From Serratia sp. FDAARGOS_506 (GTDB taxonomy: Bacteria; Pseudomonadota; Gammaproteobacteria; Enterobacterales; Enterobacteriaceae), in contig NZ_CP033831.1 of the NCBI RefSeq assembly GCF_003812745.1, positions 124,001-188,000 on the forward strand: 64,000 bases of DNA, in the 5' to 3' direction. Positions within the stretch are counted from its first letter, which is position 1; each line of letters starts with the position of its first letter. Of this stretch, positions 23,350 to 29,687 are shown piece by piece. The position numbers and the translations under genes were made by a program. Below the pieces are notes generated by a model. That model was not told the origin of the DNA. It was given only the letters and a program-made list of their open reading frames with translations, and made no database searches.

Positions 23350-25590
23350 TTAGAAGCGCACCTCCCCGCCGAAGATATAAGTGCGCCCACGGGCGGTGTT
23401 GGTCGGCGTCTCATACTGCGACTGCGACGGCAGCGAGTTCATCTTGTTCAGAGCGTCCGAATAGTCTCTGTCCATCAGGTTTTGCACGCTGAGCTTCAGC
23501 AGCAGATTGCGATTCACCTGATAGGTGCCGTACAGATCGATAATGGTCGGAATATGCGGCGCCGGCTCCTTCAGCAACTGCTCATTCTCATCGTAATCAG
23601 AGTCCGGCGACAGACGCACCGACTTGCCGGTGTATTTCACCACCCCGCCCAGCGTCAGTTTTTCGTCCAGCAGGCGCACCCCGCTGTCCAGCGTGAAGTA
23701 GAATTCCGGCAGTTCACTGATATCGCCCGCACCGAATACGTTGCTGGCCTGGTTGGTCGGCTGGGAGGTATGCTCCTTGCTTAACGACAGTTTGGTGAAG
23801 GCGAAACCGGCGTCGTACAGCGCTTCAAGCTCCACCCCGCGCGTTTTGACCGGATCGGGAGCATTGCTGTACATGGTCATGCTGACGTTGATGTCCGCGT
23901 TATCCCACTCTTCCTGCGTCGCCTGCGAACGGTTGCACTTCTGACGGTTTTTACACACCAGGTAGGTTTGGCTGGATATGTAGTTTTTGATCTTGGTTTC
24001 GAAATAGACCGCTTTCAGTTGGAAGCTGTCCTGCTTGAACAACAGATCGTGGGCATTGGCGTTGAATCCGCCCTGCCAGGTCTCCGCTTTTTCACCCTTC
24101 AGGAACGGGTTCATCGACTGGCCGCCGCTGTTGGCGAAGAACACTTCCTGGATATTCGGCCCGCGCATCGACTTGCTGTAGCTGACGAACGGCTGCAGCC
24201 ACGGCGTCACCTGCGCCGACAGCATGACCGACGGGTTGAAGCCGTGTTCGTTGCGGTTGATAGTGCCGGCGCCCTGAGGGAAGCACTCTACGCGCTCATC
24301 ACAGGCCGGCTTGTAGCCGGAGAGGCGATAAGCGGTGTAGTTCAGGTCGAAATTTCCCTGCCAGATGCCGTAGTTGGCCTGCAACCCACTGTACAGGCTG
24401 GAGATATCTTGTTTGCCGGCAATGCCCACCGGCATGCTTTCCGCCTGATCCTGATCCGTCACCAGCCCGGATGCCTTTTTCTTATACTCGTTGCGCACCA
24501 GCTTGCCGCCGTAGCTGAAGGCGAAATCAATATCCCGCAGGCTGAAACGGCTGGTGTTGTTGATATCCAGCGCATCGGAAATGTTTTTCGCCGTGCTGTC
24601 GCTGAACCCCGCCATGTTGTTGGACATGAACTTCTGCTCACCGCGGCTGGTGCTGGCGGTCAATTTGAAATCGATCAGTTCCGAGAACGGCGCGTAGTGG
24701 TATTTGAGGTAAAAATCGTCGCTGTCGATGTGGCGGCGGGTGATTTTATTCTGGTAGCTGCGCGCCGACAGTTCGATGCTGTTGAAGGCATCCGGCTTGA
24801 TGTCCACTTTGAACAGCTGGGATTTCGGGTTCTGGCGGTAGGTTTTATCGACGTTGAACATCTCGCTGTCGAAACCGGCGCCGTTTTTGTAGTTAGAGGT
24901 GATGGAGCTGCCGCTGATCGCCGCCATCGCCCCCAGGCTGCCGCCGTCGGCAAAGGCGGCAGTTTTGGCACCCACGGCGATCATGCCGCTGCGGCCGATG
25001 CCGTTATTGCCCACCGAGAACTTGGTGCGTACGCCGAACGGGTTATCGGAAAACACCACGTCATCCACGCCGATGGTGCGGAAATTGGCGCTGCCCGCCA
25101 AGGCATTCACCCCGTCGGAACCGGTGGCGTTGCCGCGCGCCACATCGACGCCGACGATAAAGTTAGGATCGATCAGCGCCCCGAACTGGCTGGTGGGCAT
25201 GCCGCCGTGCGCTGCATCGCTCGGGGAGTTGCCGTAGTAGTTTTGCGTGATGCCGTCGACCATGGTGTTGACCCGGCCGAAGCCGCTCAGCCCGCGAATA
25301 TTGACGCTGACCGATCCCTGGCCGGGGTCGATCTGGGTATAGGTGCCCGGCATGCTGCGCAGAATGCTGTCCACCGACTCCAGATTTTGGTTCTCGTCGC
25401 GCGAGCTGAACGCGCCCGGCCTCGCCAACGCGTCTTTTTCGCTGCTTTTGCCGCCGTCGGCGGCCGAGACGTTGAGCGGGCTGAACGCCACGCTGCCTTT
25501 ATTATTTTCCGCCTGTTCCTGCGCGGCCGCAGCCGGCCCGTACAGCGCCAGTCCCGCGCCGATCAGGCTCGCTATCATTTTGATTTTCAT
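23350..25590 (-). CDS. TonB-dependent outer-membrane receptor, heme/hemoglobin-receptor type
   Basis: 746 residues with a Sec signal (first about 22 residues, ending AAAAQ). The plug domain shows SVDSILRSMPGTYTQIDPGQGSVSVNIRGLSGFGRVNTMVDG and GVDVARGN. The barrel follows, ending in the terminal aromatic GGEVRF needed for outer-membrane assembly. SYSKSMRGPNIQEVFF (about residue 475) followed by NPFLKGEKAETW resembles the FRAP/NPNL region of heme and hemoglobin receptors; the plug lacks an obvious siderophore signature. Two C-x5-C pairs (CDERVEC near 431, CKNRQKC near 547) probably close surface loops. It lies downstream of chaN-tonB-oligopeptidase B on the same strand, but a terminator-like hairpin intervenes and I see no Fur box immediately ahead of it. 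The ligand is unknown; heme or a heme protein is the favoured guess. Confidence 0.85.
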   Translation of the reverse strand: MKIKMIASLIGAGLALYGPAAAAQEQAENNKGSVAFSPLNVSAADGGKSSEKDALARPGAFSSRDENQNLESVDSILRSMPGTYTQIDPGQGSVSVNIRGLSGFGRVNTMVDGITQNYYGNSPSDAAHGGMPTSQFGALIDPNFIVGVDVARGNATGSDGVNALAGSANFRTIGVDDVVFSDNPFGVRTKFSVGNNGIGRSGMIAVGAKTAAFADGGSLGAMAAISGSSITSNYKNGAGFDSEMFNVDKTYRQNPKSQLFKVDIKPDAFNSIELSARSYQNKITRRHIDSDDFYLKYHYAPFSELIDFKLTASTSRGEQKFMSNNMAGFSDSTAKNISDALDINNTSRFSLRDIDFAFSYGGKLVRNEYKKKASGLVTDQDQAESMPVGIAGKQDISSLYSGLQANYGIWQGNFDLNYTAYRLSGYKPACDERVECFPQGAGTINRNEHGFNPSVMLSAQVTPWLQPFVSYSKSMRGPNIQEVFFANSGGQSMNPFLKGEKAETWQGGFNANAHDLLFKQDSFQLKAVYFETKIKNYISSQTYLVCKNRQKCNRSQATQEEWDNADINVSMTMYSNAPDPVKTRGVELEALYDAGFAFTKLSLSKEHTSQPTNQASNVFGAGDISELPEFYFTLDSGVRLLDEKLTLGGVVKYTGKSVRLSPDSDYDENEQLLKEPAPHIPTIIDLYGTYQVNRNLLLKLSVQNLMDRDYSDALNKMNSLPSQSQYETPTNTARGRTYIFGGEVRF

Positions 25591-25637
25591 ATATCCCCAG
25601 AAATAGCCAATAAGGTTTGATGGCCGACAATGCCCAG

Positions 25638-25662
25638 CAAAAAAACCGCCGAAACGCGCGGT
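25638..25662 (-). terminator. Terminator between oligopeptidase B gene and receptor gene
   Basis: Read leftward, an accgc/gcggt stem (25645-25662) is followed by a T run (A run 25639-25645). A GC-rich imperfect hairpin near 25685-25705 lies just upstream. The receptor gene begins only about 48 bp past it. Confidence 0.7.
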
Positions 25663-25712
25663 AAAAGGTTGTTATTGTTTTATTGCGCCGCAGCATGCCG
25701 CGGCGCTGAAGG

Positions 25713-27839
25713 TTATTTCTGCGCCTGCCGATCCGCTGCCAGAATAAAGGCGTACTCCAGCGCGCCGTTTTCCAGCCGCGCCAGACGGCCCGATTTGCCG
25801 CCGTGGCCGGCGGTCATGTCGGTGGAGAGCAACAGCAGCGAATCGCCCTGCTTGAAGCGCCGCAGCTTCGCCACCCATTTGGCCGGCTCCCAATACTGCA
25901 CCTGCGAGTCGTACAAGCCGCTGGTAACCAGCAGGTTCGGGTAACGCTGCTTACGCACGTTGTCGTATGGGCTGTAGGATTTCATCAGCGCATAGGCGGC
26001 CGGCTGGTGCGGGTTGCCCCACTCCTCGTATTCGCCGGTGGTGAGTGGAATGCTGTCGTCCAGCATGGTGGTCACCACGTCGACGAACGGCACCTGCGCC
26101 ACTACCGCGTTGTACAGCTGCGGCGCCTGATTGATCACCGCCCCCATCAGCAAACCGCCGGCGCTGCCGCCCATGGCGTAGATGCGCCCCGGTTGGCCGT
26201 AGCCGTCTTTGATCAGCGCCTGGGTGGCGTCGATGAAATCGTTGAAACTGTTCGGTTTGTGCGTCAGCTTGCCCTGTTTGTACCAGCGCTGTCCCAGCTC
26301 GCCGCCGCCGCGCACGTGAATCAGCGCATAGACGAAGCCGCGATCCAGCAGGCTGATACGGTTGGCGCTGAACGCCGGATCCATGCTCATGCCGTAAGCG
26401 CCGTAGCCGTACACCAGCAGCGGGTTATGCCCGTTTTTGAACAGCGATGTGCGGTACACCAGCGAGACCGGCACCTTCACGCCGTCGCGCGCCGTGACCC
26501 AGATGCGTTCGCTGTGGTACAGGCTCGGATCGACACCTTTCACTTCCTGCTGCTTCAGCAGGGTGCGCTCGCCCTTGTTCAGATCCCACTCATAGGTGCG
26601 AGTCGGCGTAGTCATCGCCGAATAGCCATAGCGCAACCGATCGCTGTCCGGCTCGGGGTTATAGCCCAGCCAGGCCATGTAACTGGCGTCGTCGAACGGG
26701 ATGGCACGCTCGGTTTTGCCGTCCCAGCTGATTTGCCGCAGCTGCACCAGCCCGTTGGCGCGCTCCTGCACCACCAGCCAGTCGCGGAACAAGCTGAAGC
26801 TCTCCACCTCGTGCTGCGCCTGCGGCGCGATCAGCGTCTGCCACGGTTTACCCGCCGCCGCCGTGCGGTACAGGCCAAAGTTCGGATCCTGATGGTTGGA
26901 ACGCAGATAAAACTCGCCGCGGTAGTGATCGAGATAATACTCGCGGCCGTTCTGCCGAGCGGCGAACAGCTGCGGCTCGCGCTGCGGCTGGTTGGCGTCG
27001 AGCAGGCGCACTTCGGAGGTCGTGTTGCCGCTGATGGTCAGAATCAGGTAATCACGCGAGGACGAGCGGCCGAGGCTGAGGTAGAACGCCGGATCGTTTT
27101 CCTGGTACACCAGCTTATCTTCCGCCGTCGGCGTACCGTACTGATGACGGTAGACCTGGTATGGCAACAGCGTTTGCGGGTGGTTACGCACGTAGAACAG
27201 AGTTTGGTTGTCGTTGGCCCACACCATGTTGCCGGAGGTGTTTTCCAGCGTTTCCGGCGACCAGCGTTCGCTGCCTAACTCGCGCAGGGAGATGCGGTAT
27301 TGTCGGCGGCCCTGCAGATCTTCGGCCACCGCCAGGCGGCGGTTGTCCTGGCTGACGTCCATCCCCCCCAGGCGATAATAGGCGTGGCCGGCCGCACGCT
27401 GATTGGCGTCCAGTAAGGTTTGCCACGGCGCGTTGGCGGTGAGCGCCTGGCGTTGATACAGCGCGAAATCTTTACCGGCGGCGTAGCTTTCCTGATAGCG
27501 ATAGCCGTTGAGCTGATACGGCACCGAACGATCGTCAGGATTCATACGGCCCAGCATCTCCTGATACAGCGTGGCGCGCAATTTCTGGTACGGCGCCATC
27601 ATCTGCTCGGTGTAGCGGTTCTCCGCCTTCAGGTAGTCCAGCACCTTCTGCTCTTTCCGGCTGTCGTCGCGCAGCCAGTAGTAGTCGTCGGTACGCGTCT
27701 CGCCGTGCGCCATCAACGCTTTCGGCGCGCGTTCCGCCAACGGCGGCTGCGGTTGCGCCAGCGCGGCGCCGGCGATGCCTAAAGAAAGCCAGAGCGCGGC
27801 CGCAATGCGGCGGCGCGGGGTGAATAACAGCGGATTCAT
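25713..27839 (-). CDS. Oligopeptidase B-like S9A serine peptidase with signal peptide
   Basis: 708 residues. An N-terminal export signal (PRRRIAAALWLSLGIAGAALAQP) precedes the seven-bladed propeller domain (from APKALMAHGETRTDDYYWLRDDSRKE) and the alpha/beta-hydrolase domain. The triad is visible: Ser in MGGSAGGLLMG (about 557), Asp in SGLYDSQVQYWEP (about 642), His in TAGHGGKSGR (about 678). Family members cut after Arg/Lys in peptides short enough to enter the propeller. E. coli PtrB is cytoplasmic and has no signal; this one should be periplasmic. It sits 54 bp after a TonB paralogue, with GAGGG before the ATG, so a role in processing an imported peptide or hemoprotein fragment is plausible (inference). 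Confidence 0.88.
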   Translation of the reverse strand: MNPLLFTPRRRIAAALWLSLGIAGAALAQPQPPLAERAPKALMAHGETRTDDYYWLRDDSRKEQKVLDYLKAENRYTEQMMAPYQKLRATLYQEMLGRMNPDDRSVPYQLNGYRYQESYAAGKDFALYQRQALTANAPWQTLLDANQRAAGHAYYRLGGMDVSQDNRRLAVAEDLQGRRQYRISLRELGSERWSPETLENTSGNMVWANDNQTLFYVRNHPQTLLPYQVYRHQYGTPTAEDKLVYQENDPAFYLSLGRSSSRDYLILTISGNTTSEVRLLDANQPQREPQLFAARQNGREYYLDHYRGEFYLRSNHQDPNFGLYRTAAAGKPWQTLIAPQAQHEVESFSLFRDWLVVQERANGLVQLRQISWDGKTERAIPFDDASYMAWLGYNPEPDSDRLRYGYSAMTTPTRTYEWDLNKGERTLLKQQEVKGVDPSLYHSERIWVTARDGVKVPVSLVYRTSLFKNGHNPLLVYGYGAYGMSMDPAFSANRISLLDRGFVYALIHVRGGGELGQRWYKQGKLTHKPNSFNDFIDATQALIKDGYGQPGRIYAMGGSAGGLLMGAVINQAPQLYNAVVAQVPFVDVVTTMLDDSIPLTTGEYEEWGNPHQPAAYALMKSYSPYDNVRKQRYPNLLVTSGLYDSQVQYWEPAKWVAKLRRFKQGDSLLLLSTDMTAGHGGKSGRLARLENGALEYAFILAADRQAQK

Positions 27840-27893
27840 AATCCCTCACGAAGTTTGAAGAGGCGCACGACGGCGATGCGGCGCCTGCGGGCA

Positions 27894-28691
27894 TTAACGG
27901 CGGGCGTTCAGCTCCGCCAGATTGAAATCGATCGGCATCGTCACCTTGACGGCCCCCTGCTGCAGCATCTCCGGCGGCGGCGGCGGCAACGGCTGGGCGC
28001 GTGACACCACCGCCACCGCTTCCCGATCCAGCGACGCAGTGCCGGAACGCACCTGCAGCGTAACGTTCGACACCTGCCCCTGCGCGTCGACGCTGAAGCT
28101 GACCTGCGGCATGCCGCTGCGCCGGCGGCTGCGGGCATCCAAAGGGTAATCCTTGATGCGGTTCAGTTTGCCTTTAACCAGGCTCTCCCACGACAGTTTG
28201 GCCTGCGCGTTGCTGTTGGCGTCGCTGTTGATCGGTGCGGCGGTCTGATGGGAGAGCGTCTGCGCCTGCGGCGCGGCGGCGCTGGACGCGGCGGCATTGC
28301 GCGTCTCTTTGGCCTGTTCCTGCGGCTTCGGCTGCGACTTTTGCGGGGGGCGGTGTTCGGCGCGCTTCTTCTCCGCCGTCACGATTTTCGCTTTCTCGGC
28401 GCGCGCCAGCTTGGGCAGATCCGGTTGTTGCTGCTGCTCCGCAGGCTGCGCCGCGGCGGATTCCGCCTGCTGCACGCCCAGCGGCAGCGGCTTGCTTTCC
28501 GGCGCTTCAATCTGCGCCGCCCAGCTCATCATCACCGCCGGCGGTGGCAGTACCACCGGTTCCAGCGCCGTCTGCGGCCAGTAAAACAGCAGCACCAACG
28601 CTGCGTGCGCCGCCAGGGCGAGCAGCAGGCCGCGCGCCCAGCGCGGCTGCGGCAGTTCAAAGGCCGGAAGGGAGTAAGACTGACTTAACAT
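27894..28691 (-). CDS. TonB-family energy transducer (HasB-like paralogue)
   Basis: 265 residues. One N-terminal membrane segment (ARGLLLALAAHAALVLLFYW, about 19-38), a periplasmic linker rich in Pro, Gln, Glu, Lys and Ala, and a C-terminal TonB fold (KDYPLDARSRRRSGMPQVSFSVDAQGQV ... RSGTASLDREAVAVVSRAQPLPPPP). The RAQPLPxPP ending and general layout resemble HasB of the Serratia heme system more than housekeeping TonB, though HasB is normally in the has operon, so this is likely an additional transducer. It should couple the ExbBD proton motor to the receptor encoded nearby. A Fur-like site lies about 46 bp upstream. Confidence 0.88.
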   Translation of the reverse strand: MLSQSYSLPAFELPQPRWARGLLLALAAHAALVLLFYWPQTALEPVVLPPPAVMMSWAAQIEAPESKPLPLGVQQAESAAAQPAEQQQQPDLPKLARAEKAKIVTAEKKRAEHRPPQKSQPKPQEQAKETRNAAASSAAAPQAQTLSHQTAAPINSDANSNAQAKLSWESLVKGKLNRIKDYPLDARSRRRSGMPQVSFSVDAQGQVSNVTLQVRSGTASLDREAVAVVSRAQPLPPPPPEMLQQGAVKVTMPIDFNLAELNARR

Positions 28692-28736
28692 AGGGGCATT
28701 AGCTTGCTTAATTGCGAATGATTATAGATCACATTT

Positions 28737-28755
28737 ACTAATGATAATCATTTGC
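28737..28755 (-). promoter_or_regulatory. Fur-box-like site upstream of the TonB paralogue
   Basis: The 12-base core atgataatcatt is identical to the centre of the Fur consensus and the 19-bp window matches 15 of 19 positions by my count. It lies in the 102-bp gap between chaN and the tonB-like gene. Confidence 0.75.
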
Positions 28756-28793
28756 AACTAAAATTAACACCCCTTTTCACTGTCTTAACGCAT

Positions 28794-29636
28794 TCATTTC
28801 ACTGATGGTGTGATCCACAAGTAGTCTGCGGTGTTCGCATCGACCTGTACGCCCTGCTCCGCCAGCATCAGCACCGTCGGCGCCGCCGCCGGTTGCAGAT
28901 CCCGCACGTGCAGCGGCACCCCCACCGATTTGGCGGCGTGATAGCCACCGGCGATCAACAGCGCGGGCGTAGGCGCCGCCAGCAGGCGTTCCGCCATGCG
29001 CCGGTCGCGCTGCTGCTGGATCGCCAGCATCGCGCGCAGCTGATCGGCCTCAATATTGCCGCCGTGCGAAGTACGGATGGTCTCTTCCAGCGCCTTGCGC
29101 ACCGCCGGCTGCGCCGATAGCTGCCCCACCGGGAACTGCGGCTGCTGATAGAACGCCGTAATCTCGCTGCGATCCAGGTTGGCCGACCACAGCGGGTAAG
29201 GCGCACGCATCGCCGCCATCGTCACCCCGCCATACAGCTCCCACTTCCAGCCCGGCTGCCAGGCGATCAGCTCCGCTACGCGGCCGTCACGCACCGTGGG
29301 ATCGCTCTGCAACCACCGTTTGACCTTGTCGACCTGCGCCTGTTGGTTCGGGTTGATCATCTCCATCAGCACGCTGCCCTGCGGCCGCCGCAGCGGCAGC
29401 TGCTGCACCAGCCATTGCTCAATTTGATGGTGGTAAGGATTGTCATGCTTCTCTCCCAGGATCACCCGCGGCTGCTGCGCCAATCGCGTCAACAGCTGCT
29501 CCGGCGTCAGGGTCGCGCCGCTGTGCAGATCGGTGATGCTCCCCAAACTCGCGACGTCATTGGCCGGCGCTTTCACCGGCGTTTGGCTGCAGGCGCCGAG
29601 CGCCAACGCCGCCAATAAAATCAGGTATCTCATCAT
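28794..29636 (-). CDS. chaN: ChaN-family iron-regulated lipoprotein
   Basis: 280 residues. Lipoprotein signal MMRYLILLAALALGACSQTP (lipobox LGAC). The ChaN domain shows PRVILGEKHDNPYHHQIEQWLVQQL, VLMEMINPNQQ, AWQPGWKWELYGGVTMAAMRAPYPLWSANL (split by normal spacing) and ALLIAGGYHAAKSVGVPLHV. Characterised ChaN from Campylobacter binds heme as a dimer via a tyrosine, and it belongs with ShuW/PhuW-like heme-uptake lipoproteins. A Fur-like site lies about 33 bp upstream of the start. No good ribosome-binding site precedes the tandem ATGs. First gene of the iron cluster. Confidence 0.9.
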   Translation of the reverse strand: MMRYLILLAALALGACSQTPVKAPANDVASLGSITDLHSGATLTPEQLLTRLAQQPRVILGEKHDNPYHHQIEQWLVQQLPLRRPQGSVLMEMINPNQQAQVDKVKRWLQSDPTVRDGRVAELIAWQPGWKWELYGGVTMAAMRAPYPLWSANLDRSEITAFYQQPQFPVGQLSAQPAVRKALEETIRTSHGGNIEADQLRAMLAIQQQRDRRMAERLLAAPTPALLIAGGYHAAKSVGVPLHVRDLQPAAAPTVLMLAEQGVQVDANTADYLWITPSVK

Positions 29637-29668
29637 GTTGGCCCATTATCGAAAATGGCGACATTATA

Positions 29669-29687
29669 GATAATAATTATCATTTGC
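29669..29687 (-). promoter_or_regulatory. Fur-box-like site upstream of chaN
   Basis: The 19 bp beginning gataataattatcattt match 15 of 19 Fur-consensus positions by my count and lie directly upstream of chaN. The divergent mmuP gene begins 124 bp to the right, so Fur might touch it too, though that is less likely. Confidence 0.78.

Follow-up and report, generated by a model that had tools for sequence, protein, structure and literature searches.

The window analysed here, a stretch of 64,000 nucleotides from Serratia sp. FDAARGOS_506 (contig NZ_CP033831.1, positions 124,001 to 188,000), contains a cluster of four leftward genes encoding a ChaN-type lipoprotein, a TonB paralogue, an exported-type oligopeptidase B (OpB) and a TonB-dependent receptor. 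We consider it probable, with moderate confidence, that this cluster is a Fur-regulated, TonB-dependent uptake module for heme (or a heme-protein) in which OpB trims peptides that are co-imported or derived from the carrier. Gene content, gene order, conservation, Fur-like sites, an intact catalytic triad, a HasB-type TonB and a plug histidine are all evident at the level of sequence. In the proposed mechanism, the receptor would pass heme, perhaps still with peptide or protein, across the outer membrane, powered by the private HasB-type TonB; ChaN, a lipoprotein whose family binds heme, would take over or hold the heme; and the exported OpB would trim short basic peptides entering with heme or made from the heme carrier, by which heme would be freed and the peptides removed. 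Heme import as the function of the cluster, taken on its own, is quite likely, and the action of OpB on co-imported peptides is plausible, at somewhat less than an even chance.

All four open reading frames of the original prediction were found at the predicted place and on the minus strand, and Pfam concurs with each family assignment. The chaN gene (28794-29636) encodes 280 residues matching PF04187 (E 1.4e-35) and is followed by the tonB paralogue (27894-28691; 265 residues with a HasB-type C-terminal domain; PF03544, E 8e-15), the OpB gene (25713-27839; 708 residues of family S9A; PF02897 and PF00326; triad S559/D644/H679) and the gene for the receptor of heme/hemoglobin type (23350-25590; 746 residues with plug His128), in which the plug (PF07715) and barrel (PF00593) domains both score over their Pfam cut-offs. 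NCBIfam families concur for the receptor, OpB and TonB with scores mostly under the curated cut-offs, and an NCBIfam profile search of the window ChaN gave zero matches.

The cluster is conserved as a unit. Of 149 genomes searched within the same family, 14 contain the receptor; in the 13 such genomes besides that of the window, chaN and tonB are clustered with it in all 13 and OpB in nine. Scanning public genomes yielded 159 relatives, 80 of which were analysed as loci. TonB is present at all 80 and chaN at 76, contig ends truncating the remaining four; OpB is present at 65, in one case matched in two pieces. Together with the window these make 94 receptor loci, which are loci and not independent events and include duplicates between the sets (e.g., L051/L074), with TonB in 94, chaN in 90 (the same four contig ends) and OpB in 75. 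The carriers include Serratia, Yersinia nurmii, Rahnella, Hafnia, Cedecea, Photorhabdus, Xenorhabdus, Providencia, Proteus, Raoultella, Janthinobacterium, Iodobacter and Chromobacterium. In all 65 OpB-bearing loci of the public scan, OpB is placed between tonB and the receptor gene. A random neighbourhood of the OpB gene in other Serratia had been named as grounds for refutation; the order is kept in all ten other Serratia loci (L063-L071, L050). None of the four genes flanking the window cluster was found at 82 of the 94 loci within up to about 8 kb per side, and the 12 loci with any of them are 11 Serratia loci (the window included) and Yersinia nurmii. What is conserved is the cluster itself, not its genomic address. 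Two of the loci carry lesions that are either decay or sequencing errors: the OpB matched in two pieces is that of one Providencia stuartii (L128:5698-7801), and at L056:9180-11446 the receptor is spread over two frames.

Stand-alone OpB genes provide a control. ChaN, receptor and TonB genes were found near none of 20 stand-alone OpB genes within about 8 kb (two of the stretches are shorter on one side: L219, 6.0 kb; L220, 1.3 kb) and near none of 29 within 1.5 kb; a weak match to an ATP-binding cassette (ABC) ATPase occurs near three of the 20. This control and the kept order with changing flanks rule out a chance neighbourhood.

Control of the cluster by Fur is likely from the sites preceding its genes, which were scored as matches to a 19-base Fur consensus. 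Fur-box-like sites ahead of chaN and tonB had been predicted with 15 of 19 matches each; both sites are present, and the recount gives 16/19 for chaN (29669-29687, minus strand) and 14/19 for tonB (28737-28755, minus strand). With at most three mismatches allowed, the window holds one match versus 0.00 expected from 100 shuffles. Ahead of chaN, the best match scores 13/19 or more at 82 of 90 loci, 14 or more at 65 and 15 or more at 40, compared with 5.3%, 1.2% and 0.06% in mononucleotide shuffles and 10.2%, 3.6% and 0.9% in random 270-base stretches. In the f9 family described below, 19 of 22 loci score 14 or more and 14 of 22 score 15 or more, versus 3.3% and 0.8% of shuffles. Related loci are not independent, yet the site is retained from family to family with changing sequence. 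At least 13/19 is reached ahead of tonB in 47 of 94 loci (three of these regions are mis-cut at contig ends), ahead of the receptor in 35 of 94 (11/19 in the window) and ahead of OpB in only one of 75. A terminator-like hairpin (25645-25662, minus strand, by consensus match) lies between OpB and the receptor gene, suggesting that the receptor may be made separately; such hairpins number nine in the region versus 6.9 expected, which is not clearly above chance.

Several lines of evidence point to heme as the cargo. The best NCBIfam family of the receptor is the heme/hemoglobin receptor family TIGR01785 (E 5e-74), and a plug-loop His-Gly is present in all 94 orthologous receptors (85 by pattern and nine more by eye). 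In the HasR chain it is aligned to position 189, which we take to be a heme ligand. The closest solved chain is 9oaa_T (E 7e-82); the best family and sequence matches of the receptor are heme-type receptors and 9oaa_T. The C-terminal domain of the TonB paralogue matches the HasB structure 2m2k at E 7e-24 versus 0.015 or worse for TonB structures, and TonB_C matches occur at three places in the genome. ChaN contains both a Cofac_haem_bdg domain (PF04187) and a lipobox, whose Cys16 is kept in 90 of 90 orthologues, and it matches the 'putative lipoprotein' structure 2g5g_X, presumably Campylobacter jejuni ChaN, at E 7e-29.

Some of the clusters also contain exbB-exbD (L085, L086, nine of ten Janthinobacterium loci, L139, L076 and L052), forming a complete private Ton motor; these two genes are carried by most beta-proteobacterial loci and by Hafnia-type loci. 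The genome of the window also encodes a separate heme receptor (C2:3597960-3599852) that scores over the TIGR01785 cut-off, so at least one further route for heme probably exists in this strain.

Distant relatives were also found. A phylum-wide search gave matches at 1e-60 in 12 of 398 genomes, and in the family called f9 here, which has genomes of about 2 Mb and is probably Pasteurellaceae, the receptor occurs in 30 of 140 genomes. In all 22 neighbourhoods examined of these 30, chaN lies upstream of the receptor on the same strand, either adjacent or separated from it by OpB, exb/tonB or lipoprotein genes. Of the 22 loci, six carry OpB, nine ExbB-ExbD-TonB, 12 a lipoprotein and 11 an ABC import set, which shares the strand in nine. 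Each of the six OpB genes is located between those for chaN and the receptor, and five of these loci have the ABC set nearby, the sixth ending with its contig. Of the two f9 ABC ATPases scanned, both are best matched by the heme HmuV-type family, and that of L166 scores 314.6, over the cut-off of 261. Taken together, the HasB-type TonB, the plug His-Gly aligned to the HasR histidine and the iron/heme-type ABC importer near the f9 relatives make heme the best-supported and likely cargo. The lipoprotein gene near the f9 receptor (L165, L182-L184, L186-L193) is an additional feature; the product from L165, the only one scanned, barely reaches the FHBP_C and TbpB_B_D cut-offs, and the f9 lipoprotein is possibly a surface co-receptor for a host protein.

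The cluster OpB has an intact catalytic triad and an export-type leader. OpB cleaves after basic residues and is not known to act on more than short peptides. The propeller, the S9 domain and the Ser-Asp-His triad are all present by Pfam and alignment, and the NCBIfam match to NF007511 scores 947.6 bits, under the PtrB equivalog cut-off of 1313. All 75 cluster OpBs retain Ser559, Asp644 and His679 as well as the acids E603 and E606. A dead enzyme was considered when motif patterns missed the f9 OpBs, but by alignment Ser, Asp and His are kept in all six; E603, the first acid after the S9 serine, is not strictly kept there. A hydrophobic stretch occurs within the first 70 residues in 75 of 75 cluster OpBs versus nine of 29 stand-alone copies, counts which are approximate as each start is that of the longest frame; some stand-alone OpBs of other families also look exported. 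Elsewhere in the genome of the window are another OpB, 60% identical, and a more remote relative with 26% identity; the 60%-identical copy begins directly at the mature sequence, where the cluster copy has a leader. A periplasmic location of the cluster OpB is likely, as judged from this leader. In a first tree, a single branch parts 35 cluster copies from 29 stand-alone copies. A single origin is not established by this, as a tree of 57 rows including farther relatives requires three changes among the enterobacterial and beta-proteobacterial cluster copies; in the same tree, the f9 copies group with five stand-alone OpBs.

A new observation concerns clusters that lack OpB: among the clusters examined, OpB and a YncE-like gene do not occur together beside the receptor gene. 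In OpB-less enterobacterial clusters, a gene for an exported-type protein of about 390-400 residues directly follows the receptor gene. This protein resembles YncE (3vgz, E 1.6e-24; NF052280, 170.7 bits, well under the cut-off of 400). The gene is present in nine of nine such loci (L053, L057, L058, L051, L074, L124, L127, L131 and L133), two of which are probably one strain, and next to the receptor in none of the 75 OpB-bearing loci; at ten Janthinobacterium loci, neither OpB nor a YncE-like gene was found. In a search of 14 genomes, the four with a cluster-type YncE also hold more distant YncE copies elsewhere, and the ten OpB-bearing genomes include no cluster-type YncE and distant copies in two. 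The L053 cluster is closely related to that of Cedecea davisae (L082; 88% identity for the receptor, 77% for ChaN and 76% for TonB), yet it has YncE and lacks OpB; its YncE is 78% identical to that of Silvania, whose receptor is just 51% identical. A tree built from 54 of the 94 receptors, leaving out near-copies and L056, L074, L054 and L055, requires three YncE changes. Among four independent pairs differing in OpB, YncE is opposite in three and equal in one (p = 0.25), a number too small to decide, and replacement of OpB by YncE is suggestive, not proven. The cluster might tentatively be placed in a serine-protease class of protease-associated import, with a heme/hemopeptide receptor and a periplasmic processing slot occupied by exported OpB or by a YncE-like beta-propeller that has repeatedly replaced it; we regard this extension as doubtful.

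Several observations weigh against heme uptake with OpB trimming. The receptor scores 250 bits, under the curated TIGR01785 cut-off of 316.85, and the second heme histidine of HasR, which we take to be His603, has no counterpart in the aligned part of the receptor. The plug histidine is absent from 9oaa_T and from the distant relatives L172 and L173, and the f9 plug loop is never His-Gly, with a His present in the 11 of 22 sequences read out. The L165 ATPase scores 252.6, under the HmuV-type cut-off of 261, and in the two f9 sets scanned the binding protein and permease are most like BtuF and BtuC, all under cut-offs. OpB is missing from 19 of 94 clusters and 16 of 22 f9 loci; its absence from the 19 indicates that it is dispensable for the receptor, TonB and ChaN.

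OpB might share only its regulation with heme uptake, being an envelope protease that guards against cationic antimicrobial peptides and is induced by iron starvation in the host. Cleavage after basic residues and the animal or insect association of many carrier genera would fit such a role, but the positions tonB-OpB-receptor (65 of 65) and chaN-OpB-receptor (six in f9) are more specific than shared regulation requires, and we judge it rather unlikely. The adjoining of peptidase and receptor genes in 75 of 94 clusters and the lack of a plug histidine in the closest solved receptor would also be consistent with an iron- or metal-binding peptide as the cargo (a peptide siderophore or metallopeptide), which OpB would open after import. 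As the HasB-type TonB, ChaN and the plug histidine all indicate heme, and the same receptor, TonB and ChaN are retained in OpB-less clusters, this cargo is decidedly unlikely. That OpB matures or turns over the receptor, TonB or ChaN and leaves the cargo untouched is improbable: the restriction of OpB to short peptides and the ten Janthinobacterium clusters with neither OpB nor YncE argue against it, while the nine OpB-less loci carry a YncE-like protein, not of a peptidase family, which speaks in its favour. That OpB acts as an isopeptidase on lasso peptides or other antimicrobial peptides after their import, as suggested by S9-type isopeptidases beside TonB receptors in lasso clusters, is very improbable, since the 52 PDB matches of OpB comprise oligopeptidase B, prolyl oligopeptidases and related enzymes, of which none is named isopeptidase, and no maturation gene was noticed among open reading frames of at least 90 residues at nine loci, where no dedicated lasso search was made and short precursors would be invisible.

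If heme uptake with OpB trimming is correct, a second, unrelated protease class has been recruited for bacterial nutrient import, import coupled to periplasmic digestion would be suggested as a general strategy, and an exported oligopeptidase would gain a job. A widespread heme-uptake module would also be marked in Serratia, Photorhabdus, Xenorhabdus, Providencia, Proteus, Chromobacterium and others. If OpB and YncE do share a slot, the two proteins would do interchangeable jobs, which would provide a functional lead on YncE-type proteins. Among the matches listed in a search of titles and abstract openings, no description of the four-gene set was found in the openly licensed literature.

Several known systems share parts of this arrangement. 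Like the Has system, the cluster combines a HasB-type TonB with a receptor related to HasR that has an aligned plug histidine; unlike Has, its receptor has 746 residues versus 865 in the solved HasR chain, the second HasR histidine is unmatched, and chaN and OpB are present. In Campylobacter, ChaN neighbours a receptor, and the ChaN lipoprotein here likewise adjoins a TonB-dependent receptor; we know of no oligopeptidase at the Campylobacter locus. HmuR2 of Proteus is a candidate orthologue. The cluster OpB is of the same family as Serratia PtrB, with the same triad and 60% identity to the second copy of the genome, but unlike PtrB it has an export-type leader and lies inside an iron cluster. 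The Fus system, which includes a TonB homologue, was the parallel drawn in the original prediction. The predicted gene set, order, iron-type regulation sites, OpB export-type leader and heme-type parts are supported by the sequence, but the Fus parallel is an analogy: the protease is S9A and not M16, the receptor matches heme families and ChaN is present. A Fus-like reading of the cluster is possible, not proven.

In Acinetobacter, the hemophilin system HphA-HphR uses a receptor and a TonB-related protein to take heme from hemoproteins (PMC8560813). The cluster has the same two components, and the f9 locus L165 adds a lipoprotein with a TbpB/fHbp-type barrel; unlike in the cluster, no OpB was met for HphA-HphR in the portions of that paper covered (PMC8560813). 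Protease-associated import, as described in the main text of PMC6793856, involves a receptor and an adjoining exported protease gene, is sporadic across Proteobacteria and iron-linked, and does not universally include the protease; 'other proteases' are mentioned for some clusters, and in a term search of that main text 'oligopeptidase', 'serine protease' and 'S9A' each occur 0 times. As in Fus and these systems, an exported-type protease gene adjoins a TonB-dependent receptor gene here, export being judged from the leader. As far as the main text describes them, the import logic is like that of the known protease-associated systems; the protease family differs, and the receptor family probably does too (PMC6793856).

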